From assembly GCA_025201365.1 (NCBI GenBank), contig JAIXMF010000017.1:124001-188000 (forward strand): a stretch of 64,000 bases of DNA. The letters run 5' to 3'. The position numbers and the translations under genes are program-made. Below the pieces are notes generated by a model that did no database searches, was not told where the DNA came from, and was given only the letters and a program-made list of their open reading frames with translations. The stretch comes from Syncephalis plumigaleata. Taxonomy: Eukaryota; Zoopagomycota; Zoopagomycetes; Zoopagales; Piptocephalidaceae. This document shows positions 1 through 54,328 of the stretch, piece by piece (the stretch's first letter is position 1; each line of letters opens with the position of its first letter).

Positions 1-2583
1 CTTAAGCGCATTATTCTTGGCATCAGCGGTTTCTCTATCGGAATTTGCAAGAGCACCAGCATGACCGAATTGCACTTCGGTCTGGAACATTTTGGCACAA
101 GTACCAATGCACCAGGCAACGACTGGCTTCTTGATTTGACCGCTACGCACTGCTTCTGCCACGCGATATTCCTCGTCGCCACCTACTTCGCCGAGTAATA
201 GCATCATCTTGCAGTTGGGATCCTGTTCATAGCGTATTAGATGGTCGATAAACGTCGAGCCTGGATAGCGATCACCGCCAATGGCTACACCCTCGTAGAC
301 GCCATCGGTGCATCTCGATAGGATATTGTTGAGCTCGTTCGACATACCGCCCGATTTCGAGACGTAACCCACGGAACCGGCTCGATATAGCTTGGATGCC
401 ACAATGTTATCCATCATACCACCGGTATTACCGATCTTGAAACAGCCTGGTTTAATACCACCAACCGTAGCGGGACCAATCATAAGTACACCGCGTTCCT
501 GTGCCACGGTAAGCAGTTCTCGCGTGTGTCGTTCGGGAACACCTTCGGCGATAATGGCCACCGATCGTACTTGCGGCTGACCATGCTCGTTATTGATCGA
601 TAGTAACTCGAGGGTACTTGCTCGTACACTACGACACGAGGCAAAGTTGACTATCGTGTCAGCATCAGGATGCTTCTCGAATGCCTCCTTTACTGTCTTG
701 TATACGGGAATGAGCGTTTCTTGCGTGCCCCAGTAGAACTTTTGCATATGTCCCGAGCCAAATGGATAGACCATGCACGCTACCGAGGGAATAGTACGAT
801 TGCAGATAAAGTCGAAATCCAACATGCCTTGCACTGCGCGTGGTTGCATACCGTAGACTATGGCACGCGTATGCGACGAGAAAGGCGACACACTCGATGG
901 CTCCTCGGATTGATTGGTCGTGTCGGTCAGTGTACCAGTGGCATTACCGCCTTCACCATCTTGTGTTGGGAAGTGAGCGAGTTCCCTCGATTGCTCGACG
1001 ACCGTCGATGGATCGACAAAGTCCGGCGAACCAGCACGCGGTGTCATACCGTCGAGTGGTGTGCCAGCCTGCGAGTTGCCGGCTAGTAGACTGGCTGCCG
1101 TGGGACGTAGTAAGGGTGCGGCCTGTGGTTTCAACGCCATAGGAACGATGGCCGTGATGTGTGTCTCCGGACCGAATACACGAATCTCCACGCCTAGCTC
1201 CTTGCCCAATTGTCGCATCGCCCGTAATCCTTCCTGGTAGTTGGGACCGGCTCGTCGTACGAACACGCGCACCTTATGCGTAATTAGTTGATGCTGGTAT
1301 TCGGTAAGTGCTCGCACGATACCCTTGAAGGTACTAGCTACATTGGTGAAATTGGCAATGCCACCACCGATAAATAGAATCTTGCCCTCGCCACGTCGTG
1401 TGTCGTCCCGCGTCATTAGATCGAGGATAGTCTTGGCATAGTCGTAGGTCTGCGTTTCTGAGGGAGCACCGCTGTATTCACCATAATTGGCGAGTTCATC
1501 GGCAAATCCTAGGGCGGCAATGGCGTCCGAGTAGACGACACTAGCACCGCCACCCGCCACCATCGTCCAAATACGTCCCTTTCGATTGAGCACGGTCAAT
1601 TTGAGTGAAGCACCGGTCTTTGCGTCCAACTCTGCAATATACGCTTCTTCCGCGGTTAGTTCACGACCAAATGGTGCGGGGAATATCATGGGTGCACCGT
1701 CATCGAGGGAAACTGCGGATGTGCCACTTGCCAATACGACATCTTTACGGGCGGCACTCCATTTGGGACCTGCTTCAAATTCGGCCGTTTGATCCAGTTT
1801 GGCTGCCATATCAAGGAAGTAAACGCCTAGATCGCCATCAGGTGAGGTGGCCGTAACAACGAGTGGATTGATCTCCAAATAGGCAAAGTGTAGATCGACG
1901 TAGACGGCGTAGGCACGTTCAATAAACGCAGCAAGTGCTAGTTGAGCCTTCTCCGAGGCGATATCCTTCAGCAGGACACTGCGAATCGTGTCGGCATCCG
2001 GTAGCAATTTACCAACAGGTATATCCAGAGTAAGCGCCTTCGCATCGACATCGCCCACATCAACACCGCCGGCATGCGTGAATAGAATACGATCGCCTTG
2101 ACGCGTTGACTGTATACAAATGTAGTGCTCCTCCTCGTCCGTGTGCGGCACGAATGGTTCTACAATGAACGTACGTAGAATACCCGTAACACCATCCACT
2201 GTAACGGGATGACCCGCTTTCTCCTCGATCCACGCGCGTACAGTGGACCAGTCGGCGTTCAATAGAAGGAGGCCGCCCTTACCACGTCGCTTGATAAGTT
2301 GATCTGGCTTAGCGACTAACTTCTCGGTGCGTAGCCAGGCATAGCGTGATTCCAAATCATCCAACTGCTGTCTCAAGGCAGCCTGATTGATTCCGGGAGC
2401 ATCTGGTGCGTCGTTATCGGCAACAGGCGTTGTTAATTCCACTTGGATTTGCGCCACTCGTACCGGTGGTAGCAAGTTGGCGGGGAATGCCGGCGTAGGT
2501 GTGACAGCGGCGGAGGGAGCCGTCAGCAAGTGATGGAATAGCAAAAGCTTTCCGTCGAATTCGCGAATGGCTTTAGTCGACAT
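1..2583 (-). CDS. ACLY: ATP-citrate lyase, single-chain form (C-terminal part beyond the window)
   Basis: Cleaves citrate with ATP and CoA to acetyl-CoA and oxaloacetate in the cytosol, feeding lipid and sterol synthesis and histone acetylation. An uninterrupted frame of 861 codons runs from the ATG at 2583 to the left edge. It begins MSTKAIREFDGK, close to animal ACLY. Landmarks in order: KPDQLIKRRGKGG, GGVDVGDVDAKA, GRIWTMVAGGGASVVYSD, a Ser/Thr-rich linker near residue 500, then GPATVGGIKPGCFKIGNTGG, SKSGGMSNELNN and FGHAGALANSD, whose His (about residue 841) is the phosphohistidine of the succinyl-CoA-synthetase-like half. The C-terminal citrate-synthase-like domain lies outside. From family knowledge, ascomycetes split this enzyme into two genes while animals and many other fungi keep one chain. 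No intron or frame break is seen in 2.6 kb. It diverges from the methyltransferase gene at 4119. Confidence 0.96.
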   Translation of the reverse strand, partial: MSTKAIREFDGKLLLFHHLLTAPSAAVTPTPAFPANLLPPVRVAQIQVELTTPVADNDAPDAPGINQAALRQQLDDLESRYAWLRTEKLVAKPDQLIKRRGKGGLLLLNADWSTVRAWIEEKAGHPVTVDGVTGILRTFIVEPFVPHTDEEEHYICIQSTRQGDRILFTHAGGVDVGDVDAKALTLDIPVGKLLPDADTIRSVLLKDIASEKAQLALAAFIERAYAVYVDLHFAYLEINPLVVTATSPDGDLGVYFLDMAAKLDQTAEFEAGPKWSAARKDVVLASGTSAVSLDDGAPMIFPAPFGRELTAEEAYIAELDAKTGASLKLTVLNRKGRIWTMVAGGGASVVYSDAIAALGFADELANYGEYSGAPSETQTYDYAKTILDLMTRDDTRRGEGKILFIGGGIANFTNVASTFKGIVRALTEYQHQLITHKVRVFVRRAGPNYQEGLRAMRQLGKELGVEIRVFGPETHITAIVPMALKPQAAPLLRPTAASLLAGNSQAGTPLDGMTPRAGSPDFVDPSTVVEQSRELAHFPTQDGEGGNATGTLTDTTNQSEEPSSVSPFSSHTRAIVYGMQPRAVQGMLDFDFICNRTIPSVACMVYPFGSGHMQKFYWGTQETLIPVYKTVKEAFEKHPDADTIVNFASCRSVRASTLELLSINNEHGQPQVRSVAIIAEGVPERHTRELLTVAQERGVLMIGPATVGGIKPGCFKIGNTGGMMDNIVASKLYRAGSVGYVSKSGGMSNELNNILSRCTDGVYEGVAIGGDRYPGSTFIDHLIRYEQDPNCKMMLLLGEVGGDEEYRVAEAVRSGQIKKPVVAWCIGTCAKMFQTEVQFGHAGALANSDRETADAKNNALK

Positions 2584-4118: not shown

Positions 4119-7100
4119 ATGGAATCCGTGGATAATAATAATGATATTAATGGGTCAGAAAATGTTAAACTCATGGACTCCTCTGGAAACACTGCTATTA
4201 ATGTAGTTACCGTAAAGGATAGCCGTAGCGGTAACAATTCAGTAATGTACTGTGATTCATGCAACACTACTATTGGCGTGAAATCGCTACACTCGCTACG
4301 AACACTTCGACTATGCCTAGCTTGCTATGGCGTGTTTGCAGTAGGTTCTGTAGATAAGCAGTCGCGTGCTAAACAAAAGCCAACATCGGATGTTAAGGTG
4401 GTCGCGTCAGCAACTACCACTCCAAACAATAAGAAAAGAAAGACCACGCATCAATCGAGTAGGCCGAGAAGCGATGAGCCATTAACGGATTGTAAGGAGG
4501 AGGACAACGATGCTCCATCATCTATTGGAACGATAACTGATCCAGTTACATCTGTACAACTGGATACCTCTCTAAATGATTGTGATGATATGACGGAATC
4601 TGCAGTTTTATTGAAGGAAATCACCGTGACGACCGCGACAATTGATAGTTGCGAACAACAAAGCCAGTCTAGTTCCGCTAGTTCACCAAAGAAGAAGAAA
4701 GCTGCCTTGACATTGTCGGATGGTACGCCTGCTATAACATGCGCTTCATGCGATGTTATCCAACCGGTCAATACTCGATTCGTGCATGTGGCCGGTGGTA
4801 TCAAAGTTTGTCGCAACTGTGAACCGCTATTTCGATCACGTTCCACTGCGGCAACTGCCGTGTCAACGACCAAAGAAGCTGCTTCTACTAATGTCGCTAC
4901 AGTAAAGGTATATTGCACATCATCATTCGTAGGCATGAATATAGAGCTAATCATAATATTGCTATTATGTAGAAATCAAAGCACACTGTAGTATTGACAG
5001 ATAGTCAGCAATCCACTAATAATCCTCAAGTATTACACAAGAAGACAAAGGAACAGCCGACAAACAAAACACCAAAGTCTAAATGCAAAACAATATCGGC
5101 ATCATCAACTGAATGCCGCAATACAGCATCTCCATTGAAGGGTAGAAAAGGCAATAATAACCATAAGTCTAATAGTGTATCCTTAGCTGTAAACACCGAA
5201 CAGGATAATGAACCTGCGGCATCTGTCGATAAAAAGTTAGAAGAATGTACATCCTGTTTGCGTACATTTACTGTTCCACTTGTCATAGTGGGCAATGGAG
5301 TGCAGGTGTGTAGCGCGTGCGAATCGGTATTCCGAGCTAGCGGCAGTCTGCATCGTCGTGCATCGGTAAAGGTGGCAATGAATCTGGTAAGTATGTTTTA
5401 CTAGTAGATTACACTTGATACTCATGCACTAATAGGAGACGCCAAAGCCGAAAGCAACTCCTACTAAGCGTAAAATTACCAAAAGCAAAGCAATGCCAAT
5501 TAAAGCAGAAACAACATCGATAGATACTAATACAGAAGATGCAGTATCATCCTCAACCACTGCTATGGATACAGACAATGCTTCTGTTGACGTAGAGTCA
5601 GCATCTGCAGCAACAATAACATCGGAATCTAAAGAAGAGACTTCCGAGGCAGTGTCCACCTCGCCACCGACCACGAAAACATCCAGCAACGCTAAGGATC
5701 ATCGGGTTTGCGACTCATGTTCATCTTCTGTATTGCTTACTACGATGCAGCGTGCCGGACAATTACAAATATGCTCCCAATGTGCACCTCTATTCCGATC
5801 ACGCGCTACTGCTATCTCATCGACACCTGCACGTAATAGTACGAATAATGTCTCGGTAGTATCTAAAACGCCTAAAACTCCAAAAGTGAACTCCTCAACA
5901 GGATCACTCGCTACAAAGTCAACTACTAGTAAGCAGCGTAGATCATCATCAACTGCAACAAATGGTTTAGCCATTAAATCGCCTAAAAGTCGTAGTCGAT
6001 CATTAGCAACACCAAAGCAACAGCAACAACAACCACTGTCCACTCCATTAGCAATCAATGAGAACGAAGTAGCAATTACACCATCATCACAGCAGCCACA
6101 GCAAGTACCTTGCGAGAGTTGTGGTTGTGTGACTGTCCATGGGTTACGTCAAATCGGTCAATTGATGGTATGCCCGGCTTGTGCACTTGTCTTCAATTGT
6201 CGCGGTCGTGTAATCCGTACGGCGCCTGTCATGAACGAGGCTGTACACAAGCAAGTGGCGTCGTCAGAAAAGAAGACAAAGCCCAGTGTCAAAGCAATTA
6301 CATCAGATGCAACCGATGTGAACGAGTTGCAATCATCATCATCATCGACTACTAACTTGACGGAAACGGAGGAGATGACAGTTGTTGAAGACACCACTAG
6401 TACAAAACCTATCATTCCTGACGTGTTATGCGAATGCTGCGGTGGTTCCGTTAAAGGTTATGCGTTGACGCGTATCGGTCGATTAAACGTGTGTATTAAT
6501 TGCGTGCCTCTATTTCGATCGAGAGCAGCGGCTCAAACAAAACTACTCGCCAATCGTATCAAACAATATGAAGCTGACGTAAGCAGTTTATTCAACGGTA
6601 TACTTCTTTACGTGTACTAATGTAATGTAATTTATCATCTATGCTTGGTATACATACATGTTTGTTAGGTATCTGCTCGAACGCATCGCAAGCGGACTAG
6701 AAGGACATCAAGTAAAAAGAAGCGAGCTAAAACGGATACCGCAAATGCCACACGCGACAATTTGTCCTTCTGTGGGGATGATGCACATGGAGATGAAGCG
6801 GAAGCCGATGAAGACAATGAAGAGGAATACAAGGAGTCGTCTTCGGATGGTGATGACAATTCAGTTCAGGATTTAGCGAATAACGCGAGCGCACCTACGA
6901 AGCGTGTCCGCTGTGAATCCTGCCATATTGAAGCACCCGATACCACGGATCCTGATTTGCAATTTAGGATATTGGGATCGTTGCTGCTCTGTCCAGGTTG
7001 CGAGCCACTCTTCGCCACTGGCCTGCGAGGAAAGCGACGAATCTTGCTACCACCATGGGCGTTAGATCAAGCGGTAATTGCATCATCTAACACTTGCTAC

Positions 7101-10100
7101 TATCTAGATATTAATTGATGCAATTGTATTATATTATGTATACGATTAGTCGTTTGAGAAGCTGAATCTAGATGATCTCGAGAAACATTTACGCTTGGAA
7201 ACGATGAATTTTGCTAATTCACACATCACATCAACGCCACGACCATCTAAAGGCTCGCGATCCACGCGTAAGAAAGGTGACGGTCAAGCATTGGCTAAGA
7301 AGGATGGTGCAAACGATGAAGCCAATGAGATTGAATACTTTCGCGAGGAAATGGCCAATGAAGGTGAGTAGAGTGCCTATTCGCATTGTAATAATGACTG
7401 ATAATGTTACGTTTAGACGGTGAATCCTGGCTTCTTTATTGCGATCAATGTCGTATGGTAATTCGACAATTCCGGTAAGATTATGATTGATATACACATA
7501 TATGAGAACGTGTGATGACCATTGCTAACTATAATCAAGTTATTACTGCACTTATTGCGAGGTACCATCCCAGGACAAATCGTATTCAAGCTTCGAGCTT
7601 TGTATCAAGTAAGTCGCGTATTGTCATCATGATTGCGCACTTGGCTCATGTTACATATTACTTCTTCTTCCTAGTTGCTTCACCAATTTCTTCCCTTGGC
7701 ATCATCAACATCCACGATCATCGTTCGCTGAACAATGCGTACTGGACGAGACAAGTATTACCTCGGTTAAGACTACGCGTGAATTGGCCGTACGATATGA
7801 ACTCGATTTGGTAGACTACACATTTAATCCAGCAGTTGATCTATTGGACGCAGCAAAAACACTCGAAGAGTTTAGCAGTGCTTGCGGTAGGGATAGCAAT
7901 GCGACGACAACAGATAGTAATAATGCGATGTTGAAAAAGATCGATGGACTTTCGTTGGCAGAGGCCGATACCGGTTACGCATTCCTTAATCAATGGTCAA
8001 AACGACGCAGATGCGCATTATGTAATGATGACGAGGTTGGCGGTGAACTAGGCGATTTCATCGGACCATATCCGTTTTTAATGCAAGATCCACAATCGCT
8101 ATCTAAGAAGGCAATGCGTACACTTTTGTCGTCAACGGCTGCCATGCAGCAGAATAACTCCCGTTCCCAGGCTGCAACAATGCTGATGTCGTTTAATGCA
8201 GATCCTGCAGCTTTGGAGGAGAAGGTGTTGAAGGCAGTTACCGGTAAGTTGAGCAGTTTGTTTCTTCATCCACATCCACGCATGACATAGATGTGTATAC
8301 AGCCAGTCTAATCAATAATGTGATATAGCTCGTCAGAGATTCTGGGTGCATGATGCATGTGCGCGATACTCGCCTGAGGTCCACGTTGCTACCGGTAGAA
8401 CATGGTATAATGTGACAGCGGCAGTGCGTCGTGGCAAGAATTGGTAAGTAGCTGATTGTCGCAACTAGTAAGTCATAATGTATCGCTGATAAATGTATCC
8501 TGCACTTTACAGAGATGTATTGCATGTCAGGAACGAGGAGCGACCATCGGATGTTTCGAGCCAAAATGTCGACGTAGCTTCCACTTGGCTTGTACGGGCA
8601 AGCCTATCGAGAACTTTCGACGAGGCATTGTCTTTTGGTGTCCACAACACGAAGTGAAGAACCATAAAGTTGGTGAGTAGCGTATTTAATGACAAGCAAA
8701 CATGCAAACAAGCTAATATTACATGGGTGATGATGATAGATGCCTATATTGATATATTCTCATGTAATCGATGTGCCGCTCAACTTGAAGACAAATGGTT
8801 TAGCTGTATAGAATGCGAGGATTTCTTTCAAACCTATGACTTGTGCCATCAGGTAATGACTCAATAGAGATAGCAGGATTTGTATGGCTCACTTTTATAC
8901 TAACACTATTGATCCATTAGTGCTTTTCGTCAGAAACAGATCCTTGGAATCATGAACATGCATCAGATGTGTTCACCGAGAAACGTACGTATAATAGAGA
9001 GGATAAGTGCAATGGCTAACTCATACGATACTAATGATATGTAATCGCCATTTACAGATAAAGATATGATTGTTAATCAAACAATTATAGTAAACAACGC
9101 ACCCAAACCTATTAAGAAGCGTAAGTATATACATTATTATTATATAATATATATAATAGAAAGTATGGACATCCAAGTAACAACTATGAATGATAGAGCG
9201 TAAACATTGGAAAGGTATGCGTGGTGTACGATTTGCTCGAGTCACCCGTTGCTCCTATTGCTGGACCGATGCATCACCCACTTGGCGTAAAAGTAGGATA
9301 GAACTCATTTTAGCTTATTGCTATACGCATCAATCATCTATTGACTAATATAATATGTCGTCACTCTAGTATTCAATGGTGTTCGCGTGTGTGAACGATG
9401 CTTTGCCAGCTCGAAGTCAACTACGGAAACCTCGAATGCATTGGAGCCTGCTGATGAGCCATCAGCATCGTTGTCATCATTGGAGACGACCAGCACGGAG
9501 ATTGATAAAACTACACCATCATCGTCATTACCTTCACTGGTGTGTTCAGATGCAGAGACAGAGAATGCAACTACGACATCGTCATCATCATCATCATCAT
9601 CGTCAACAACAGCAGCATCTATCTCAGCGTCTATTTCAGTATCTATTGCATCGATAGCGGATAAAATCACTGATGGATACCAGCCGAATAACGAGAGCTA
9701 TGTCGGTGATGTTGATGATTACATGCATAATCCGTATCTTACTCGACGCTGCTATACTGATGGTCGATTCGAGGAGACGCAATCCAATGCTAAATACCTC
9801 GAGTCTTATGGGCCGGAAGAGCACCAAATGTACTCGCTACCCTATGATACAACCTATTTTGACATACCAGGTCGAGCACCACGCTGTAAGTAATCACTAC
9901 ATGTTTATTCGCATGTAAACAATGGTTAAACTAATACAATGTAAATATATAGGGGCTACTCATTCAGGAACGGATTATCATGGTGAGTACAATGAATATA
10001 ATGATATCGCATTTCACTCATGATTACAACGTGTTTATTGCATTATTATAGGAACATGGCTACCACAAACTGTTCGAAGGTAGGTCAAAATGGATAGGGA

Positions 10101-12399
10101 ATAAAATACGTAGACATACATATATATATATATTAATATATATCATGTAGAGCATTACTACGTTATACACGAAAGAATGATCGTATTTTGTCAAACTTTC
10201 TCGGTAGAGGCACTGATGCCATCGAATCATTCTTATTACAACGAAGGTAATTGCTAAACTACTATTACTACTCTATTGATCTGTCATATTCATATTCATC
10301 TATTGCAATCTAGATGTGTTGGTGTTGATATTAATCCGGTATGCTAAAGATCAATACACTATCGCTACGATAATTATTAATGAATCTATCCGTGAATTAA
10401 TACTAGACGGCGGTGTCATTATCACAGAGGAATTGTTCATTCGCCGTGCCACCGGAATTCGGCATTACCGGTGATTTACGACCGACTATTCTAAAGGCTG
10501 ATGCACGCTACCTGGATGGTCCGAACTTTATCGAGGGATCCTACGATCATGTTCTCTCGCATCCACCGTATAAAGACTGCGTGGAATATTCCGCTGGTTT
10601 GCAGGGGGATTTGTCGCGATTTGCCAATTCACAAGAGTTCTACTATGAAATGGCTAAAGTAGCCCGTACTTCATGGAGGTATAGTGAAGTATAGTAGATG
10701 TATGTGTCGAATAATGTTATTAACAATGCCACTTCAAGACTGCTTAAACTAGGCGGGAGATGCACCATTGGTATTGGTGATAATCGAGAGTTTTGCTTCT
10801 ACATTCCTGTGGGATTTGACTTGCTACGTACATATCTCGATAATGGCTACAAACTAGAGGAATTGGTAAGGAGTAGTCATGAATATTTAGTAATTATTGC
10901 TATTACTAAACATGACATTTAGATTGTGAAGCGACAACGTTATTGCTCTGCCTTTGGACTAGGCACATTCCTGTGTGTTCAGTATGATTTCTTATGCTTT
11001 ACTCATGAATTCATCATTACCGTAAAGAAGGTGACTGACGCTGACACCATCAACAATCATTATACACTTGACGAGGGTAGGCCATGTTCTATTGCTACAT
11101 ACCTAATGGATTACTGTATTGATTGCACTATTTCCTTATAGATCGTGATGATTCATCAATGTCAAAGCTAGAACCGAAACAAATACTACGTAGTGTGCCC
11201 GCACTACCCATTAGTAGACAAAGTGTCATCATGGGCACTGTATGGACATTTAGAGCGGATACCAGCTATTCTTTCTCTCAGCTATGTATGTCTCGTATGG
11301 TAAGTGTAGAGAGCAGCATGAATAGTGAGATACGCGTATGATTAACAACATGATAAATGCAATCTATTACTCAAACTAGGTTGAACGTTTCGGTAAAGAT
11401 GATACAAACTGGAAAGAGATAAACTTGTATCCAGAGCATGGTATAAAGGTAAGACGCCAAGTATTCATCATGACGAATGCAATTGTATATTAATATTTGA
11501 ATTGAGAAGGAACCGATTAATCGTGATGTTGTACATAATAACATATCAAGTAAGTAAAGTCGCTTCTACGACAATTATACATATCCATGCATGCTGAATA
11601 ATGTACATATTCCTAGATAATGAGAGCAATAGCGAATTAGTACCAGCCACTTATGAAGAACAACGCAAGAAGCAAATAGTAGAAAACAATCAAATGCTAA
11701 TGTCATTGGTAATTATTACACTATCATCATCATTACTACTAGTAGTAGTTATTCATATGTTGTATATAAATGATCACTTCATCTTTAGGGTCTTATCACT
11801 GATTTAGGAGACGATGCGAATGATGTACCACATCTAGAAAAGTTACTATATGGATCACCGCCTATTGTAACTGACAATGTACCATTGAGTATTGTTATAC
11901 TTCCTCATATTGAAGATACGAATCCGGAACAGCCGCACTTTACCTCGTTCGAGCAACTTGCCACATATCGTCGTGGTGTTGTCGAGACGGCACAACAAGC
12001 CTACAATGATCTATGCATCTCTGGCTTCTTTATTGTTGGCGTGAAGGATGTACGTATTCCACATACATGCACGGATGTCGATGCAAGTGAACGAACCGAG
12101 CAACTACTTTATCCGCTTGGTATGCTCCTGCTCGAGGACATGAATCGCGTGTTTAGGACGGACCAATTGAAATTGAAAGAACTCGTGGTCACCGTGCCTA
12201 ATGGCTATTCACGCGATCCGTATAAATGGGACAAGAACTATCAGGAGATTCATATTAACGATCTACCCGAGGATTCGACACAACGCTACTTGCCAATTGT
12301 TCATGTAAGATAATAGTTGCATTTGTTACATTCAGTAATGCTAATCTTGTTGTGGTTATTTATCAGGCGTATTATCTAGTATTTATGAAACTTGGCTAA
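4119..12399 (+). CDS. Multi-zinc-finger (GATA-like array, ZZ, extended PHD) fused to an amino DNA methyltransferase
   Basis: 28 exons joined by frame and splice motifs give about 2142 residues. Seven CxxC-x16-22-CxxC modules lie near residues 45, 208, 354, 492, 625, 732 and 863, most followed by LFRSR-like text. A ZZ-like finger (about 990-1047) follows, then an extended PHD (about 1143-1303; CALC, FWVHDACARYSPE, CIACQERGATIGC, FWCPQH), a second ZZ (about 1313-1372) and a GATA-like finger (about 1403-1440; CSYCWTDASPTWRK, VCERC). The methyltransferase (about 1605-1840) has motif I NFLGRGTDAIE with GVDINP and motif IV SHPPY, then GLQGDLSRF, IGIGDNREFCFYIPVGF and QYDFLCFTHEF. A further segment (about 1970-2142) resembles a second methyltransferase C-half. 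Inferred role: chromatin-guided methylation of adenine N6 or cytosine N4 in nuclear DNA. Nothing proves activity. The exon 9/10 junction at 8443 is not canonical. Main exons: 4119-4907, 4973-5386, 5436-6578, 6669-7073, 7675-8243, 9370-9885, 10407-10678, 11789-12304, 12367-12399. Confidence 0.85.
10121..10146. repeat. A+T-rich TA microsatellite inside an intron
   Basis: Alternating TA stretch in the short intron (10080-10150) between the exons at 10052-10079 and 10151-10246 of the methyltransferase gene. No other feature is visible in it. Confidence 0.6.
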
Positions 12400-12555: not shown

Positions 12556-15500
12556 CTATATTATATTATAGTTGCGGAACACTTCATTACGTGAGATAGT
12601 GTCACGAACGTCAAGATCATTAAGTGATGGTTCCGGTTGTTGCTGTTGCTGTTGCTGTTGCTGCAGTTGTTGTTGCTTATGCAATTCTCTCATTTGAATG
12701 GGTGAACCAGCGTCTTCCGGCATGTTTATTACTTGCTCGGTTGCAGGACCGGATACATCCTTTCTTTCAACACGCTTAATCCTAGATAGATAAAAGTAAA
12801 TACATGTAAGTCAATAATGTTCACTATCATTACTAGCTAGCTAGTAGTACTAGAAGCAGCAGTAGCAGTGGCCGAATATACTTACTTTTGACCGGTGTTT
12901 CTATATCGAATCATACTCAGATAGATAAGGAATATGTTGAACAAGGCGAAAGCAATGATGATACCAAAGTTACGCCAGCGATGCGAGAATGACCAGCCCA
13001 ACGGTTCAAAGTATTCGTCGCCCACCTTGTACTGGCAGTAGCGACAGTCAGCGGTAGCCATTGGATTGTCGATATAACCAGGATTGGAGCGTAGGAAATT
13101 GGCCATGTAATCGCCGCATGTCTTGCCAGAGGGCGGTTGCAGAATATTGAATTCATCCGACTTGCATGTAACCGTCTTGCCATACATGTCATTAGTGAGG
13201 AAACCCTATAATGTATGTGATTAGTACAATGTGTAATAATAAATAAATATGTATGTCGTACCTCAATAACGTAATGATATGGATCGATCCAGTACATCCA
13301 TCGTCGCCAGAATGTTGGCATGGCTACTGAGGGAATCATAACACCGCTAAAGTTACCCATCATCGAGGAAATGAACGGCGCGAGCAACATGGCCACCGGG
13401 AGATTAGGCGTCATGGCGGCCATGGCCTGTCCGAGGAAAGCGCTAAAGAGCGAGAATACAATGTAGAGCAGTAGAAGTAGATGGCACGATCCGAGGCAGG
13501 ATTATAATTGGTAAGGTAAAAGTTGATGGCAAAGAATATGGTGGCCTCGAACACGACATAGGGGATTTCCGCAACGATCATGGCGGTGGTGAAGACCCAC
13601 CATGAATAGTAGCCGGAGGAGGATTCGCGTCTGAATAGCGTGCGTTGCTGGAAGAATTGCGGCATGACATCGTTAATGACAATGACACCGAGAACTGCCG
13701 TTTGGAAGATGGCGAATGATCGATTGAGCAGGGCATCCTTGCTATAGTCGAGACGATAGAATGTGAAACCAAGAATAAGCGCAATAATGATTTGATGCAA
13801 CAAACGACCAAAGTTGTAATCGGGCATACGCCAGTAATTAAGGATCATACGACGAATGACGATATCGCACTGGATAAGCCCGTTCGTTTGATACGATAGC
13901 GGTTTCTTATGCCTCTTCTTGTGTTGCTGCTTAGCAAGTGCCTCCTCCTCGGCTACGGTACGTTCACAGGCTGTCTCGTACTCGTTGACGGTAACCTGCA
14001 CTTCATGAGCTTCGGGCGAGTTCCTCCAAATGGTCGGCCAGTCTTGAGTGGCTGCCGCAGACACACCGGCACCAACCGCATCCAATATGTACTCGGCTGG
14101 ATTGGCCGTGGGTGGACATAGGGAAGCGCCGTTACGTTCAAAGTACGAGATTAGAATGCGTGCGTCCATGCCGATTTTACCGAAATAAACAGTCTTGCCA
14201 CCACGTGCCAGCAGCAATAGCTTGTCAAAGTGCTCGAATAGAATGGCAGAAGGCTGATGAATGGTACAAATGATAGCTTGACCTTGTTCGGCGAGACGTT
14301 TGATCAACGACACAATAGTGAATGAAGCTTGAGCATCTATATTACGTAATAATAAAATAATAATAAATAATATGCTATCATTGTTCTTTCATTCGCAACT
14401 TACCTAGACCAGAGGTGGGTTCGTCCAAGAAGAGAATGGTCGGTTTAGCAACTAGTTCCATAGCGATGGAGAGACGTTTACGTTCCTCTACCGATATACC
14501 ACGACCGGTTTCCGGTTCACCGATCATGGCATGGGCGATCTCGTTCAATTCTAACAAATTGATGATGTAGTCGACATAATCGTTCTTCTCCTTAGTGCTT
14601 ACACTCTGCGGCTGACGTAGGTAAGCGGAGAAGCGCAGTGTTTCACGTACTGTGGCATATGGATTGTGAACATCCATCTGCTCGCAATAGCCGGTAAGCA
14701 AACGGAAATCGGGACCTGGCACATGATTTTGCAGACGAATGTTGCCATTGACTACACCGACCGATTTACGCTGTGCCAACACATCGAGAAGTGTGGTTTT
14801 ACCGGCACCGCTACTGCCCATCAGGGCGACAAGTTCACCGGGACGTACCCAGCCGGCAATGTTGTCGAGTAGCTTTCGCTTACCACCGGGATCCGATTTA
14901 AATGGTACGGTGTAGCTGATGTGATTCCACAGGAAGATGGGCACCTCGTTGAGATGCTCCATATTGGCACGTTGCAGTGATTCCGACGACATGGTCATGT
15001 CTGCTCGTAGCCCGAACGAATGGGCACCGGCTTGCCATCCGATCCGATTTCCCTGCCACGACGAGCGGATTTCGGCAAACGAGACTTGTAGACATTGGTC
15101 GAGTAGCCACCCTTGCCGAACTCGAGCACTTCAATGCAGACCGATGTGATGATAATGTACAAGAGCCAGAAACCAATGGAGATGACGATATCCGGCCAGA
15201 GCATCGACTCGTGCGCGCTTAGTTGTGTTCGCATGTAGTTGAGACCGGGCACCTTGTCGCTACCGGGAGTGGCACCGGCAATCGTACACGTTTTGTAGCG
15301 TAGATCGTCGTAGCCCGGACCATACGGTAAAAGATTGGGTGGCGAGCAATCAAACGTCAATCGTCTGTATTCATTAAGTAGCAATGCCTCGAGTCCCCAA
15401 GCCAACGGATTAATGTATCTTATCCATATGAACCACCCTTCATGTCTTTCAACGGAATAATGTAGCCCGCGTAGACAAGGAAGGAGAGAAGGAAGATACC

Positions 15501-17597
15501 GGCGTAAATGTTGGCCACTTGTATGTTAGGCGAGATCGTGCCCAGTAAACGGAAGAGAGCAGTCATGGCCATGGACAGAACAAAGAGCGTGAACAAAAAG
15601 GTGAAGAATGTGTCTGCCGCCGAGTAGAATCCGACCATCCAGTAGATCATAGGGCGAACGATCCGACAAACACTAAAAGACGCGGGACATCTGCAATCAC
15701 TGAGCAATATAGAAGGCAGAGGGATGATAGAGCGCGAGTGTCTTGTGCTTATACAATACACCACGACCGAAGAACGTCTTGGGCAGTTCCGATTGCGAGG
15801 AGAGCGCATTGAAGAGAAGCGACACGAATAGCGCACCACCTCGAGTGAAGGCGCCCGAACTATCGGAGGGCAACTTGAAGAAGAGCGATCCAATGATGAT
15901 GGCCTTGATCGCGTTCGACACTAGACGTGTGATAATTTCACCACGTCCACCGTAGAGTAGATGTGCTTCACGGCCAGACACGCCATCAACTGATGACGAT
16001 AGGGTGTCATGTAGGGTGAGTGTTTGCGCACGCCTTTATGCTTGACTTGGATGACCGCTTCACGGAATTCGACGTCAGGACGTTCCTGCTCCAGTTGCTG
16101 TTGATAAGCATTGAGTTCCTCCAAGTTGTTGCTATACTCGGGACTTGACTGGAATTGACGTGCAAATTCATCGGCCGTACTAGGCACTAGACTCTCGAAA
16201 CCGGGTCGAACTGTACGCTCACGCAGCTGTGTAACACCGGTGAGGAAATCGGGAGTTGTCATACGGGCCGGACACTCGAGACCGAGTCGTTCAAAGTAGG
16301 ACTTTGCAGTGGTGGTCGGTCCAAAGTAGAGACAATGGCCCTGGTCGAGCACGAGCACCTTGTCGAACAACTCGTAAATACTCTCGCTAGCCTGATAGAA
16401 CGAGGCGAACGTGGTACGTTGTAGGACATCCGTGGCAACACGCAGCGATCTTACAAAGTCAAGAGCCGTCGAGGCGTCAAGACCCTTGGTACTACCATCC
16501 CAGATGCCCACCGTGGCCATCGAGACAACTTGTTCGGCGATCGAGAGACGTTTGCGTTCACCGCCTGATACACCACGAATCATGGCATTGCCAACTTGCG
16601 TGTTCTTACAATGTGTGAGACCGAATACCTCGCAAGTGGTATTGACCATTTCATCGATGAATTCCTTGGGATTCTTCACGTATTCCTTGCTTGGTGTACG
16701 ACACTTGCACACAAATTCCAGTGTATTCTTGACGGTAAGCTATACGAGCAAATACAAATAAATAAGTAAATAAATACTATATAACTAAAAGTATTACTAC
16801 TTACTGTTGGATAGTGAACATCATCCTCTTGATTGTAGGCAATCTCTCCTTTGTATTGATCCATCTCCTCGGCTGGAATACCGCCATAAGTGACAGATCC
16901 ACGCACCTCCGGTAAGTACGACGGTGATTGGCTAGCACGCGTAGTAGGGTGGAGCAGCCCGATCCCGGTTTACCCAAGACGAGCACCATCTCACCGTCGG
17001 CACACAATCCGGTAATGTTGTGTAGAATCTCGAATGGAATACCAGGATCTGGCTTAGGCAAAAGATGTAACATGAAACCGAGTTGTCGTATTGGTCGATA
17101 GAACGGTGTCCAAAAGGTGCGAATGTGCTCGCGTGTCGTAGAATTACCGATGACCGTAAGATCACGGAACGCCACACCAAGTCGTTTGTGTCGAATGCCT
17201 TGCTCGCGAGCCACATCCAATCGATTGTTCAAATACTCTTGGAGATCGATGCCAGCGGGTGGTAGGCCGGCATGCTCCTCCTCCAATTGCCAGCACCGGC
17301 CACACTGGGACGAACCGAGTTGTGACTTAGCGTTCTGCCTAAGGCAGCGTAGCGTGACTTTGCATCGTCTACGTCGACCGAGCTCACCTCACCAAAATTC
17401 ATGGTGACGCCGCCTGGCATCGATTCTTCCGTACGAGGCGCAAGATTGATCGTCTCATCGGCAAACTGCAAGTGTGGCGAGGTGGACGACTGATGATTAT
17501 CCTCGCTCTGCGATCCATCATCATGATCGGACGAGTGGGATAGACTGGCCTGGTAGGTGCCTATCCTTTTATGAGATGGCCGTCTTTCCATATGCAA
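12556..17597 (-). CDS. Full-size ABCG transporter of the pleiotropic drug resistance (PDR) type
   Basis: Plasma-membrane ATP-driven exporter of lipophilic drugs or sterol-like compounds in known relatives. Order along the minus strand is NBD1, TMD1, NBD2, TMD2. NBD1 has [11 protein letters not shown], signature VSGGERKR and the fungal-type degenerate Walker B region [11 protein letters not shown], with Tyr in FYQASE where the switch His would be. NBD2 has [31 protein letters not shown] and CTIHQPS. A Cys-rich loop (CGDY, CRYC) precedes the last membrane helix, as in fungal PDR proteins. Introns lie at 12782-12885, 13206-13261, 14337-14403 and 16740-16804; the tail is Gln-rich and ends at 12556. 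The frame slips by one base near 17289, 16910, 15972, 15700, 15648, 15437, 14999 and 13466. Several fit one G/C lost from a run. It is either a misassembled live gene or a decaying one. Its 3' end converges on the methyltransferase gene, 157 bases away. Confidence 0.9.
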
Positions 17598-47833: not shown

Positions 47834-50800
47834 CTACGTAGTAAGTGTTCGTTTGAATTCAGCTACTTTTGCTTTTGCATTAGTTAATCCAATTGCAGGT
47901 TCCCAGGTATTTTCTTCGTCTGGGTAACCGAGCCATTTAACAAGGTATTGTACTTTTCCTCGTTTTGTACGTACATCTAATATACGCTCTACTTCGTATT
48001 CTTCTGTATTGTTGATTATGTCGGGAGGTGGTCTATCGTTCTCTCGATGTGGAAATTCCGCAGTATTTGGCTCATAGCGTTTAAGTAGTGAGACATGAAA
48101 GACATTATGTATTTTCATTGTTGTTGGTAGTTGTAATTTGTAAGCGGTTTTACTCACTATCTGAGTGATCTGAAAAGGACCGATGAAACGAGAGGTGAAT
48201 TTTCGCGAAGGTCTTTCTTTGTCGATGTCTAGAATAATATGAGCACTTGATAATAAGACTTGATCACCTAGTTGAAAATCGTCTTCTCTTCTGTGTTGAT
48301 CGGCATAGTGTTTCTGTCGATCTTGTGCGTTACTAATGGCGTTCTTAGCTAGTTGTACTATCTCGTTGATCTTGTTGACCATGTCGATTGTGCTGGCTAC
48401 ATGTGTAATTTTGTCTACTTTCGTGCCTAGTGTGTCGACGGCGCGAGGTTGTTTTCCTAAATAGCAATAAAATGGAGACATTTTTATAGAAGCTTGTTCG
48501 GCGCTGTTGTACGCGAATTCGACTGCAGATAATAATTGATCCCAATTGTCTTGCTTATAATTGACATAATTTCGTAGCATTTGTTCTAGCGTTCTATTCG
48601 TTCGTTCAGTTTGACCGTCCGTTTGTGGGTGATAAGCGGTTGACGGTTTAAGTTGGACATCTAATATGCTGAAGAAGGAACGCCAGAAATTTCCGACGAA
48701 ACGAGCATCTCTGTCTGTAATAATGCTTTTTGGTAGGCCGTGTAAACGGAATATGTTGTCCATAAACAGTTGAGCTGTTTCCGCTGCAGTTACAGTAGTA
48801 GTAGTAGGTATAAAATGTGCGTACTTTGTGAGTCTATCTACTACTACTAATATTGCGTCTTTTCCGTTTTTAGTACGTGGAAGTTGAACAATAAAATCCA
48901 TAGTGATGTCTTCCCATCTCTCGTTGGGTACTGGTAACGGTTGTAATAATCCAGCTGGCTTCCTTTGAGACGGCTTGTTACGTTGACATTTGTCGCAAGA
49001 TGATATGTATCGTTCTATTGTCTTTTTCAGTTCAGGCCACCAGTATTGTTGCGCTACTCTGGCTAGGGTCTTATCAACGCCTAAGTGACCTGATATCGGT
49101 ATGTCGTGCTTTTCACGTAGTATTTTCGCACGTAGTTCTCCTTGAGGAATGCATAGGCGTGGTATTTCTCTACGCATTTCGTAGATTAAGCCGTCGTTTG
49201 TTAGTCGAAATCGTTTTGAATAACCGCTTTTTGACGTGCTTCCACCCCCCTTAAGAACAGACTTCACTTCCAAGAAGTAAGGATCATTGTTGTATCCGTT
49301 TCGAACATGATCTAGTAGTTCGTTATTTGACGAGAGTCGAGTAATGGCATTCGATTCAGACGTGATTGCCGCGGGTTTTCTTGAGAGGGCATCGGCTACA
49401 ACATTCATTTTTCCAGGCTTATATACAATGTCCATGTTAAATTTTGACATGTCGTTTAGCCAATCTGTCTGTCTATCTGATAAGTCATTTTGATTTTGCA
49501 AATGTGTCAATGGCCGGTGATCAGTGTACACAGTGAATTTTTGTCCTATTAAGTACGGTCGCCAGATACGTAAGGCTTCTTTAATGGCCAAAAATTCCTT
49601 ATCGTAAGTAATGTACTTTTTGTGTGAATTGCTCAATACTTTTGACATAAAAGCTACTGGCCTATCACCGTTACCGTCGTCTTGCATTAATACAGCGCCG
49701 ATTGCGTCATTTGACGCGTCCGTTGTAACGGTGTATGGTAAACTAGGATTACTAGAACGCAATACCGGTGCATTAGTCATTCTTTCTTTTAGTTGATTGA
49801 AAGCATCTCTTTCTTCTTTTTCGAATTTGAATGGAACATCCTTGCGTAATAGATTCGTTAAAGGCTTTGCAATGAAAGCATAACCTTTAATAAATTTACG
49901 ATAATACCCGGTAAGTCCTAGGAATGACCTAACACTCGTAACGTCTTTTAATTCTGGCCAATCTCGTATGCTAATGACTTTATCTTCTGACGCTTGAATG
50001 CCTTCTTTACTGATAGTATGGCCTAAGAAGTCGACTTTATCGCGACCGAATTCACATTTACTGAGCTTTGCGTACAATTGATGTTGTCGTAGCAATTCGA
50101 ATACTTGTCGTAAATGAGCGGCATGTTCTTCGTGACTCTTGCTGAACACCAGTATGTCGTCTAAAAATACTACTACGCATTGGTCGAGAAGCGGTCTGAA
50201 AACGTCATTCATTAGTCGCATGAATGTACCGGGCGCGTTCGATAATCCGAATGGCAACACTTTGAATTCATATAGGCCATAACGAGTAGTGAAAGCCGTC
50301 TTATGTACGTCCTCCTCTTTGATTCGAATTTGATGGTAACCAGACCGTAAATCGATCTTACTAAATACCGCTGCACCTTCTAGTTGATCGAATAATGATT
50401 CAATATGTGGTAATGGATACTTGTTTTTGATAGTGATCTTGTTCAACATACGATAGTCAACGCACATACGTAGCGGTCCATCCTTCTTTCTAACGAATAG
50501 AACTGGTGCGCCGAATGGAGAGGTACTCGGTTGTATAAATCCTTTCTCCAATAGTTCATCTATTTGACGTTTCATTTCTTCTTGTTCATCTCTTGCCATT
50601 CTATAGGGTGTGCGTGCAGGAGGTGTTATATGTGGTTCCAATTCGATGGCGAAATCCACGTTACGACGTGGAGGTAGCCCAGGGGGTAAGTTATCGGGTG
50701 TTACGTCAGTGAACTCTGTTACTAAGCTATGGTAACGCTTATCGCCATTGTATTCACCAGTGTTCAAATCGGATTCACGTACAATGGCTAAATAACTAAT

Positions 50801-51238
50801 AGTGTCAGGTTCGTCGAAACAGGAGCTTAACTCATTCAATGTCATGAATTTGGGCTTGGTCATAGTATCGCTACTTTGGTAAATAGTAACTAGTTCGTTA
50901 TCGATGTAAAATGTAACGATTCTACTTAACCAATCAATCTTAGGATTGTACTGTTCGAACCAAGGCATGCCTAATATTGCGTCATATTTCCCCAATTGCA
51001 TAACATCAAAATCAAGATATAGTAAATAATTTTGTATTAATAAAGGTATTTTATGCGCACAATACAAGACACTGCCAACAGAGCCATTTCCTAGGGTAAC
51101 TGATTGTTTGTTCTCATAGGGAATAAGCGGGTGATTGATCCGCTTAACAAACGAGGTATCGATGAAATTGTCGGTAGCACCGCAATCAATTAATACGTTC
51201 GCCATTATTCCATTAAAGGGCAATTGAACTGATATCAA
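47834..51238 (-). CDS. Ty3/gypsy pol polyprotein with chromodomain
   Basis: 1134 residues: aspartic protease ([12 protein letters not shown]), reverse transcriptase ([22 protein letters not shown]), RNase H ([12 protein letters not shown]), zinc-binding integrase (H-H-C-C around [11 protein letters not shown] and CDKCQRNK) and a C-terminal chromodomain ([17 protein letters not shown]), which in this group directs insertion toward marked chromatin. Separate frame from gag, as in many relatives. Confidence 0.97.
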
Positions 51239-51351
51239 GGGTCTACTCTTGCGTGCTATCCATAATTCACCAAGTTCTTCGGTTAAACAAGTAGGTAAGA
51301 GAAATGGTGTATCAGCGGTATCGAGCGCTTCACCAGTAACACCGCTGTTGT

Positions 51352-52434
51352 TTACTGGTGGGATTCGTTTCCCGTATTCTGAGCATTGTTGATTTGATCA
51401 AAGTGATCGTCAATTTGTAGGTTCGGATCGTCGGTCGTAATGGCGTTGTTTCTACGGAAAGGATTATGATGTCTATTACTGTTACTATTACGGTTTTTGT
51501 CATAATTGTTGAATTGCGCGTTGTTACGGTTGTTGTTAAACTGGGAATTTCCACGATTATTGTTGAATTGCGAGTTGTTACGGTTGTTGTAAGATCGTCG
51601 CTGTGGATTTGCCAGACATAGACGTGCAGTGTGATTGATTCCCCCACAGTGATAACAAGTAATAACATTGTTATTTTCGACCCGTCCTAACTCCATAGGA
51701 GCTACACCATCATTCTGTCGCTGCCGTTGAATTGGTTGTCGTTGAAGTAGATTAATGTCGGGATGATCGAATTCTTGAGCAATTTCAATGCATCTTAGAA
51801 CTGTATCAGGTGTTTGACGCAATAATTCGCTAGCTGCTGGGCCACGGTATCCACGAATGAAAGCGGCTACTTTTTGTTGTTGTGGTACATGACCCAGTTT
51901 ACTAGATATGTCGTAGAATTGTCTCACGTATTCGGTAAGATCACCTTTCTGTGTTAAATTCAGCAGCATCAATTCATTCCTTAGGTTCGAATGGGCAGGT
52001 TGAAAACGACGGCGTAACCTTTCCCGGAGGTCATTCCACGTAGTCAATGGAGCGTATCCTGGCGTACCGTTTTCTGCTTCATTAACTATGTGTTGTAACC
52101 AAGCACGAGCTTCTCCTTTCAAACACTGTGAAATGAAACATATTTTGGCACCATCTGTATAATCTTGATCGCCAAGTTGCATATTCATATTGAATAACCA
52201 TCCCTCAAAATCTTCATTGGGTCTGCCGTGATAATCTTCGTGATGAAGTTTGATGCCGCGTAAGTTGTTAGTGTTAATATCCATTGCGTCGGCCATATTA
52301 GTGAGTGGAGGGAAAATTTCGAGTAATATAGATGAATCTTCTGATATTTCTGAGCAGGTAGCGAAGGGATGCGAGGAGCTATTTGAACTAATTGAGCTGT
52401 CTTCTTCACTAATAGGAAGACCAAAAATAACCAT
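51352..52434 (-). CDS. Ty3/gypsy gag
   Basis: 360 residues with the retrotransposon gag domain ([44 protein letters not shown]) and a zinc knuckle [14 protein letters not shown] before an Asn/Arg-rich tail. Confidence 0.95.
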
Positions 52435-52528
52435 AAAATCACCCAGGAAGGGTATGACTAAAAAGCTAAAACAATAAAATCAGAGATATTGTAAGTTGGT
52501 ATTGTGGCGATTCAGCCGTTGCTACCAA

Positions 52529-52698
52529 TGTAATACGCACAACTTTAGACGAGAAGATAGATGATCTTTATTTTAAATAAAAGTAATAAAGTATTTATAG
52601 GGATAAAATTAATTCGATTACTGTGTGAAATATGGTAAGTCTAACTACCGCTTCGGTAAGTCTTACCGAAGGTTTTCACTATCGTAACAATTGTTACA
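52529..52698 (-). repeat. 5' LTR of the Ty3/gypsy element
   Basis: 170 bp, identical by eye to 47641-47810. Followed on the right by the second CTATC copy of the target duplication. Confidence 0.95.
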
Positions 52699-54328
52699 CT
52701 ATCGACCAGTGTTCAATCTGAAGGCACTGAATCAGCACGTTATATCCCCTCACTTCAAGATGGAGACAATCCAACAGGTCACCCAGCTAGTAAGGAAAAA
52801 CGACTACCTCACGTCCATAGACATTACCGACGCCTTCCTACACATTTTGGTACATCGCAGCTCAAGAAAGTACCTCCGTTTCAATTGGGAAGGAGACACA
52901 TTCCAATTTCGCACCACACCCTTCGGCCTATCAGTAGTCCCGTGGGTTTTTACACGTTTAACAAAACCCGTCTTAACGTGGGCAAGGTCAATAGGCATTC
53001 GAATTTCAGCATACCTAGACGATTGGATCATCATCGCCAGCTCAAAGCAGGAATCGAAATGTCACACAAACACAATAATGGCCAAACTAGCAGAACTAGG
53101 TTGGCTGTGGAATCCCAAGAAGTCACAGCTCACTCCAACGCAGTCTCTAGTTCACCTAGGCTTCAAGATAGAAACGAAGACGATGACCATCAAGCTTCCC
53201 ACCAAGAAGATCCGCGACATACGCAAATCGATCAAAGCAGTGCTCAACAGCAATGCGACAACACCTCGAATGATCCACAGTCTCACAATGAGAATCAAGG
53301 CAGCGACGATCGCAATATTTCCTGTGAACTTGTACACCCAAGCATTGATGTTCTTCAAGAATTCCCATGTGAAGAACAACAAGAACTGGGACAGCAAACA
53401 GACGCTACCAGCAGATTGCAAGCGAGAACTGAGATGGTGGTCCACCAACCTATCCAAGTGGAACGGCAGATCACTAATAACACGTCCACCAACATCATCA
53501 ATCTATGTGGATGCCAGCGACAAGGGATGGGGTGGAGTTTACAAGAACAACATGATACAAGGTCTATGGTCACACGAAGAAGCGAAGCAATCAATCAATT
53601 GGAGAGAGCTGAAAGCAATCGAATTGATGATCAAATCATTACCGCAACTATCGAATACGACGATTCTGATACGCACAGACAACACGACGGCGAAGTCATA
53701 CATCAACAAGCAGGGAGGAACGAGATCTCGTCAACTCAGCTCACTAGCAACGCAGATATGGGAGATGTGTCTCAAGAGGAACATTCAGATTCGAGCCAAA
53801 CACATTCCAGGCTCTCAGAATACCGAAGCAGACTACGCATCGCGCAAGTTCTACCTCAAGAACTTATGGCAAATACATCCACGCACATTTGCACAGATAC
53901 AACGCAGGTACGGTCAACACGACGTAGATCTATTCGCCGATCGAACGTCTCATCTACTACCAACGTATGTAGCGTGGAAGCCAGACCCTCACGCGATAGC
54001 CACAGATGCACTATCAATCAGCTGGAGACAATTCAGCCATCCTTACCTGAATCCGCCGTGGAACTTGATATCCAAATGTGTGAACAAGATACAACAGGAG
54101 AAGATAGCACAAGCAACGATAGTGACGCCATTCTGGCCGTCAGCAATGTGGTTCCCCATACTGAGCAACTTAGCCACAGCTCCCCCAATAATACTCGACC
54201 CACAACACCACGCGCAAACTACCTCCCCTTCCGCCAGTTGGCCATGGATAAATCACAAGTGGAGAATATCCGTGTGGAGTGTCTCAAGCGAAAATATGAG
54301 GAGCCAGGATATTCGGACAAGGCAGTGA
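52699..54328 (+). CDS. DIRS reverse transcriptase / RNase H / methyltransferase-like segment, 3' part
   Basis: Reads the DIRS-type polymerase: YLTSIDITDAFLHILVH, ISAYLDDWIIIAS, RNase H (IYVDASDKGWGGV, ILIRTDNTTAKSYI), then DVDLFADRTS and YLNPPWNLI, the NPPW of the methyltransferase-like domain known in DIRS elements. It overlaps the recombinase frame, as is usual in this family. Confidence 0.9.

Follow-up and report, generated by a model that had tools for sequence, protein, structure and literature searches.

A predicted fusion of chromatin-type fingers with an amino-methyltransferase of prokaryotic origin in Syncephalis plumigaleata and other early-diverging fungi

The stretch of Syncephalis plumigaleata DNA analyzed here (64,000 nucleotides, contig JAIXMF010000017.1 of assembly GCA_025201365.1, positions 124,001 to 188,000; hereafter the window, whose own numbering is used throughout) holds an intron-rich gene in which the original prediction, made from the letters alone, recognized a bacterial-type amino DNA methyltransferase domain. 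How did such an enzyme come to lie within a fungal gene, and what might it methylate? The gene occupies 4119-12399 of the plus strand, and its domains follow each other in the order GATA-like fingers, ZZ-like finger, extended PHD finger (ePHD), ZZ finger, GATA-like finger, catalytic core and degenerate methyltransferase half. We consider it probable that the product is a chromatin-guided amino-methyltransferase of nucleic acids, most likely a DNA methylase, whose core and degenerate half were captured together, once, from a restriction-modification-type enzyme of prokaryotes or their phages.

The catalytic core comprises 248 amino acids (aa) encoded in eight exons at 9831..11033 (+). It was delimited by homologue searches, by alignment A1 (the window protein and 14 relatives, two of them partial) and by its match to the Pfam family PF01555 (N6_N4_Mtase), which scored 40.9 bits against a curated cut-off of 26.7 (3e-10). 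The domain had been proposed at 9953..11141; it is real, and its start lies upstream of that interval, at 9831. The motifs named in that proposal are all present on the plus strand in the proposed order, as read in translation, and are separated by introns with GT-AG ends: NFLGRGTD (motif I) in exon 10151-10246, GVDINP in exon 10314-10338, SHPPY (motif IV) in exon 10407-10678, IGIGDN and IPVGF in exon 10739-10865, and FTHEF in exon 10923-11076. The order (motif I NFLGRGTD, DINP, motif IV LSHPPY, GIGDNR) is unpermuted. In A1, 34 of the 248 positions are invariant, LSHPPY included, and motif I and GDNR are invariant as well. The motifs are thus more than a chance resemblance, and the proposed bacterial amino-methyltransferase type is supported. 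It was also rightly foreseen that the enzyme belongs to a family other than MT-A70: the window protein gave no match to PF05063 up to E 1, and its motif is HPPY, not DPPW. Nor was there a match up to E 1 to N6_Mtase PF02384, the family of MetB.

The motif IV consensus of PF01555 is [DNS]PP[YFW]. HPPY stands at this place in all 15 rows of A1 and in all six rows of alignment A2. GRGTD was not followed by SHPPY within the next 140 aa in 7 of 124 proteins; six of these stop no more than 94 aa after GRGTD, and the seventh, P0067, is without the stretch, probably through a fault in its gene model. Judged from its letters, the core is a divergent branch relative to the motif IV rule of the family, a statement that concerns only what kind of enzyme it would work like. 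A literature search found no paper on an HPPY-type enzyme of this kind. In the proposed mechanism, NFLGRGTD would bind S-adenosylmethionine, and an exocyclic amino group would be methylated at the S-HPPY pocket.

A manual GT-AG model yields a single gene with its ATG at 4119 and its stop at 12397-12399, made up of 28 exons and 27 introns of 49-90 nucleotides (nt). The predicted protein has about 2,140 aa, 1,258 aa N-terminal and 883 aa C-terminal of the junction between exons 9 and 10. Its closest relative, Syncephalis fuscata P0050, is 66% identical over 99% of the C-terminal 883 aa. At the exon 9/10 junction (8439..8512, +) the window's assembly copy is one base out of frame (8443 joined to 8513). 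The locus is present a second time where contig C380 ends, with 98.2% identity to the window over 7,060 columns. This second copy is in frame at the junction, has a canonical intron there and reads KKLRC like S. fuscata; its own single-base indels are elsewhere, at 9589/9634 and 10604. Because the two copies differ in their one-base breaks, a read or assembly error is a likelier explanation of the frame break than a dead gene; the window may, however, carry a broken allele at the junction. A frame-keeping intron of 29 nt at 8444-8472 was dismissed, being far below the 49-90 nt of the model and given the canonical intron of the in-frame C380 copy.

Over 1,758 codons the two copies differ by 46 synonymous and 26 non-synonymous changes (Ka/Ks 0.17). 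From the ePHD onward, as far as the copies overlap, the changes number 9 and 1 in 627 codons, and in the covered part of the catalytic core 3 and 0 in 184 codons; these counts are small, and three indel-bearing codons were left out. The conserved part of the gene looks to be under constraint. Paired contigs were seen for other families as well (C24/C293, C2/C363, C103/C373 and C340/C27; the pair for this locus, L019, is C79 and C380), and the assembly may hold two haplotypes. Searched exon by exon with PF01555, the genome itself gave no match, presumably since introns cut the domain; the window gene and its second copy were recovered by a search at the protein level.

The degenerate C-terminal half lies at 11222..12396 (+) and lacks the catalytic motif. 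The original prediction had taken the end of the domain for a tail resembling bacterial DNA methylases. IGIGDN, IPVGF and FTHEF are indeed present, but what follows the core is another methyltransferase half, a degenerate one. When the C-terminal 275 aa of the window protein were compared by hhalign with the second half of the prokaryotic relative P0095 and the second open reading frame (ORF) of locus L032, a probability of 97.1 and a score of 74.8 over 95 columns were obtained, against a maximum of 16.1 in 40 column shuffles. Against prokaryotic catalytic domains the fungal half scored 51.4 (maximum of 40 shuffles, 22.6), and against fungal catalytic cores weakly, 34.0 (maximum of shuffles, 27.6). 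The prokaryotic degenerate half matched prokaryotic catalytic domains with a probability of 97.4 in a run made without shuffles. The second ORF of L032, which overlaps the catalytic ORF of that locus, alone reached 20.2 bits with PF01555, below the cut-off of 26.7. None of 34 fungal-type C-terminal halves, chosen by pattern, contains [DNSH]PP[YFW].

An active unit beside a degenerate one is thus seen in two relatives on the prokaryotic side, fused in P0095 and as an overlapping second ORF in L032. P0095 has 421 aa, the core plus a second half, and comes from a contig of 4,648 bases in a metagenome-assembled genome named Actinobacteria. In its structural model (mean pLDDT, the predicted local distance difference test, 71.7), the strands and helices of the second half form a shorter run that resembles the rear of the first half, as read from the list of elements and not from a comparison of coordinates. 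From these alignments, the pairing of an active with a degenerate unit probably predates the fungal family. In the fungal protein the inactive half would serve as a built-in structural or DNA-holding partner, comparable to inactive MTA9 for MTA1.

Where the enzyme came from can be judged from its prokaryotic relatives. Alignment search gave P0093-P0096 and P0098, with 35-40% identity over 92-97% of the core, and a prokaryotic fragment, P0100, with 35% over 81%. In a tree of 40 rows, 27 fungal-type cores (the window, 16 named fungi and 10 unnamed metagenome proteins) form one clade (100/100) within the prokaryotic rows, and P0095 adjoins it (93/94). An IMG/VR scan with P0095 alone found no relative, and one with A2 found 29. 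With eight IMG/VR rows added to the tree, the fungal clade stayed at 100/100 within the prokaryotic rows, and P0095 and L032 were paired (99/96). The long-branched IMG/VR rows L037 and L038 came nearest to the fungi in this larger tree (94/87), a closeness that may reflect long-branch attraction. The root depends on six plasmid and bacterial outgroup rows. These trees lend good support to a single capture with a prokaryotic or phage source; that the enzyme may be a captured bacterial one had been suggested by the original prediction. The capture, to judge from the same rows, is not a local event; it is old and common to early-diverging fungi, in whose ancestor it would have taken place, the enzyme being retained since.

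The neighborhoods of close relatives were read at eight loci (L029, L032-L035 and L037-L039; L036, which nearly duplicates L035 but is truncated upstream, was left out). A DpnII endonuclease gene is present in three of them (L029, L033 and L034), and a D12 adenine methylase in these and in L035. In Fusobacterium vincentii L029, the relative comes after genes for a D12 methylase and for two endonucleases, DpnII and one of Mrr type; on the IMG/VR contig L033, D12 and DpnII genes lie immediately upstream of it; in L034, the relative is followed by another PF01555 enzyme and a fused D12-DpnII ORF; and in L035, a D12 gene lies upstream with two ORFs in between. No D12- or DpnII-type genes were recognized in the ORF lists of L032, L037, L038 and L039, for which the Pfam scan covered three L032 neighbor ORFs, and no restriction endonuclease gene was seen beside the fungal gene. 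The DpnII and D12 neighbors of the relatives argue for DNA, specifically adenine, as the ancestral substrate.

Some further observations were made on these records. The fused ORF of L034 (5078-6982, 635 aa) encodes D12 adenine methylase and DpnII endonuclease as a single polypeptide and lies beside two PF01555 enzymes. P0095 matched 816 plasmid records, of which 759 were typed conjugative. The only plasmid enzyme scanned (L031 1983-2864) had a weak C-terminal match to the Dam-replacing helix-turn-helix domain of DpnI, 21.9 bits with a cut-off of 23. The record of L029, NZ_CP084075.1, is labelled a plasmid yet has 2,108,235 bases and one annotated feature, and may be a chromosome.

What would guide the enzyme is suggested by the finger modules ahead of the core. 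An array of six GATA-like C-x2-C..C-x2-C fingers at 4251..6503 (+) was found by pattern scan, and an additional GATA-like finger of looser spacing was seen by eye at 6912-7001 (+). The N half contains seven such patterns, the six GATA-like ones and a seventh that is part of the first ZZ-like finger, as compared with a mean of 0.0125 and a maximum of 1 in 2,000 shuffles of the same letters. This ZZ-like finger (YCDQCRMVIRQFRYYCTYCEV..LCINCF..HHQHP; 7417..7720, +) matched Pfam ZZ weakly (14.2 bits, below the cut-off of 21.4), and its motif is also found in relatives. The ePHD is encoded in exons 8-10 (7999..8653, +); on the in-frame letters of C380 it scored 43.3 bits with PF13771 (cut-off 29.1) and 40.3 bits with PF13832 (cut-off 27), whereas the C half of the window protein by itself gave 24.3 bits, under the cut-off. 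The second ZZ-type finger (8740..8984, +) has visible cysteines and stayed below both cut-offs (ZZ_ADA2, 22.5 bits against 27.5; ZZ, 18.2 against 21.4). So did the GATA-like finger CSYC..WTDASPTWRKIFNG..CERC (CX2CX17CX2C; 9250..9401, +), with 19.5 bits for PF00320 and a cut-off of 26.8.

In set A3, whose 39 rows comprise 5 prokaryotic and 34 eukaryotic-type sequences (several of the latter being fragments), Pfam matches at E 0.01 were N6_N4_Mtase in 38, ePHD in 25, MBT in 13, GATA in 6 and Agenet in 5. N-terminal C-x2-C..C-x2-C fingers were found elsewhere in Piptocephalis P0071 (three) and Entrophospora P0053 (one). By their kind, the ePHD, MBT and ZZ modules point to an association with chromatin. 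Together with the GATA-like fingers, and in other fungi the MBT/tudor-type module, they would anchor the protein on chosen chromatin or DNA.

Relatives were sought in 5.8 billion proteins on the basis of the core, the C-terminal half or the neighboring finger region, by searches that rely on shared words, one of which scored 8,000 candidates only. Those with names, matched by one of the three parts, span 28 fungal genera. The ePHD and PF01555 occur in one protein, by the precomputed Pfam list, in 13 of these: Syncephalis, Thamnocephalis, Benniella, Entrophospora, Choanephora, Phycomyces, Diversispora, Coemansia, Fimicolochytrium, Kickxella, Geranomyces, Piptocephalis and Rhizopus. The others are Spiromyces, Mortierella, Lobosporangium, Haplosporangium, Endogone, Powellomyces, Lunasporangiospora, Linderina, Basidiobolus, Dimargaris, Phlyctochytrium, Smittium, Clydaea, Polyrhizophydium and Borealophlyctis; many of the remaining relatives are fragments. 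We take all 28 genera to be early-diverging fungi. No Dikarya genus was among the named matches, though with word-based searches, one of them limited to 8,000 candidates, this absence is unproved.

The substrate is the point at which the evidence divides. With the fungal-type core profile, the PDB sequence ranked first was the putative DNA modification methylase 2zie (1.3e-12), followed by aTrm11 (2.5e-8); the prokaryotic profile gave 2zie (2.6e-14), MboIIA (1.3e-9), N4-cytosine enzymes (1.8e-8) and aTrm11 (3.4e-8), and the best described matches in PHROGs were DNA methyltransferases. Two results weigh against a DNA methylase at work: the departure of HPPY from [DNS]PPY at motif IV, and the fold search, in which the closest solved structures were tRNA m2G10 methylases (Trm11, TrmN and Trm14; 14-25% identity in structural alignments). 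The fold search does not decide between DNA and RNA, as permuted DNA methylases would probably receive low scores in a sequential alignment. The matches are thus not to tRNA or rRNA methyltransferases alone; with tRNA m2G10 methylases leading the fold matches despite the ranking of the profiles, we infer DNA as the substrate and do not count it as observed. The enzyme could instead be a Trm11-like amino-methyltransferase of RNA (for example tRNA or small nuclear RNA), nuclear or not, with zinc fingers that bind RNA or proteins. Its unpermuted motif order is that of Trm11-type enzymes, and plant METTL4 is an example of action on RNA by an enzyme whose family is known for DNA. We regard this as unlikely. 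Trm11, Trm14 and TrmN carry a THUMP domain, and no THUMP family was matched by the window protein up to E 1 or by the sets of relatives at E 0.01 (for A3, among the 25 of 29 families shown). A DNA methylase heads the sequence-profile rankings, three prokaryotic relatives adjoin DpnII restriction genes, and the ePHD, MBT and ZZ modules suggest chromatin. Moreover, a Trm11-like fold is also what the model of P0095, a member of the same prokaryotic group, matches, so that this match may track motif order and not substrate.

A slightly less likely explanation still is that catalysis has been lost and that the methyltransferase is a scaffold that binds DNA or chromatin. The unusual HPPY and the second half without a catalytic motif would fit this, but HPPY is found in the prokaryotic relatives too, members of restriction loci included, and so looks ancestral rather than decayed; A1 shows no variation in motif I or GDNR, and non-synonymous changes between the two copies are few. 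That the locus is a prokaryotic contamination or an assembly chimera has next to no probability and is already contradicted. The core is of prokaryotic origin, yet the gene has 27 introns, with the core itself across eight exons, just as the original prediction had argued from its splitting; ePHD and PF01555 share one annotated protein in 13 fungal genera; and the remaining ORFs of the window look, by eye, like ordinary fungal genes. A chromatin-guided methylase of DNA is the reading we prefer, and among its possible bases adenine N6 is likelier, because some prokaryotic relatives adjoin DpnII-type genes. Its fullest version would make the protein a third writer of DNA base methylation beside MTA1 and MetB: single-chain, addressed to chromatin, with a built-in inactive half, an HPPY site and descent from a prokaryotic tandem methylase related to DpnII-type loci. 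This version we put forward tentatively, with somewhat more doubt than trust.

The surroundings of the gene were read by eye only. Upstream, ORFs at 1-2583 (-) resemble ATP-citrate synthase, and downstream, those at 12556-17388 (-) resemble a PDR-type ABC transporter. Further on, two ORFs of 1,187 and 375 aa at 47834-52479 (-) resemble the polyprotein and a gag-like part of a Ty3-like long terminal repeat retrotransposon with a chromodomain-like end, and overlapping ORFs of 858 and 546 aa at 52660-55236 (+) resemble those of a DIRS-like element for tyrosine recombinase and for reverse transcriptase.

How does the fungal protein compare with known systems? Its likeness to the N4CMT of bdelloid rotifers, suggested originally, holds as an idea: in both, an amino-methyltransferase of bacterial origin and of PF01555 is joined to a chromatin-reading module in a eukaryote, the ePHD being above cut-off on the in-frame copy and MBT present in 13 of the 39 rows of A3. 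It is not a close one. According to the excerpts of PMC8885841, N4CMT is permuted, with the catalytic before the SAM motif, has SPPY and one chromodomain, and occurs in bdelloids only; the fungal protein is unpermuted, has HPPY and a tandem degenerate half, carries ePHD, ZZ and GATA-like modules (MBT elsewhere) and belongs to early-diverging fungi. The same excerpts state that N4CMT has no eukaryotic homologues, and those of a 2024 review that it is found in bdelloids only (PMC11065753). The core sequence, motif order and HPPY are shared with the methylases of DpnII neighborhoods and with plasmid enzymes that have HPPY, some of them bearing the annotation 'DNA adenine modification methylase'; these are without chromatin modules, and the degenerate half is found only with P0095 and L032.

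Few eukaryotic cases of N6-methyladenine (6mA) are as firm as that of early-diverging fungi, where its writers have been sought within MT-A70 and MetB. The attribution of fungal 6mA to MT-A70 enzymes in the original prediction needs to be widened, as MetB is also a known writer, a bacterial-derived 6mA enzyme of Mucor and other early-diverging fungi (Lax 2024, PMC11258239, in excerpt). MetB resembles the present protein in being a prokaryote-derived amino-methyltransferase of these fungi; it differs in being an MmeI-like N6_Mtase of PF02384, and the excerpts mention no reader fusion. The deletions described in them are of metA, metB, metC, mta1 and p1, and the PF01555 fusion family is not among their candidates. 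MTA1 methylates adenine N6 of DNA in early-diverging fungi and, with MTA9, pairs an active with an inactive partner, but these MT-A70 writers (MTA1/MTA9, METTL4) belong to PF05063, have DPPW and keep the inactive partner as a separate protein; a 2025 survey covers MT-A70 (all from excerpts of PMC12695648). The fungal 6mA writers named in excerpts of a 2026 review are MTA1c, MetB and a METTL4-like enzyme in Botrytis (PMC13297926).

In the genome of S. plumigaleata itself, five MT-A70 matches were found, among them L001, which is METTL4-like, L002, apparently its second copy, and L004 and L005, which are MTA1/MTA9-like. There were also two PF00145 matches, apparently copies of one gene, and seven AlkB-type PF13532 matches, and an exon-by-exon search for PF02384 at E 0.001 gave no match. 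If this fungus has 6mA, its source could be MTA1-type enzymes, the PF01555 fusion protein or both. A literature search found no paper linking PF01555 to fungi. Iyer, Zhang and Aravind (BioEssays, 2016) reportedly list many eukaryotic captures of adenine methylases, and the list may include this fusion family.

Taken together, the results suggest that early-diverging fungi may own a DNA-marking enzyme overlooked by methylation studies, and the fusion of reader and methylase occurs in genera whose 6mA has been studied, Phycomyces and Rhizopus. If this is true, 6mA, or N4-methylcytosine, would be placed by histone state, an arrangement unlike that of the writers described in the literature examined. 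If active, the enzyme would tie histone state to a base mark within one protein, so that the crosstalk could be tested by the deletion of one gene. It would then also add to the independent examples of restriction-type enzymes that became epigenetic writers, with a distribution wider than that of bdelloid N4CMT and a probably greater age.

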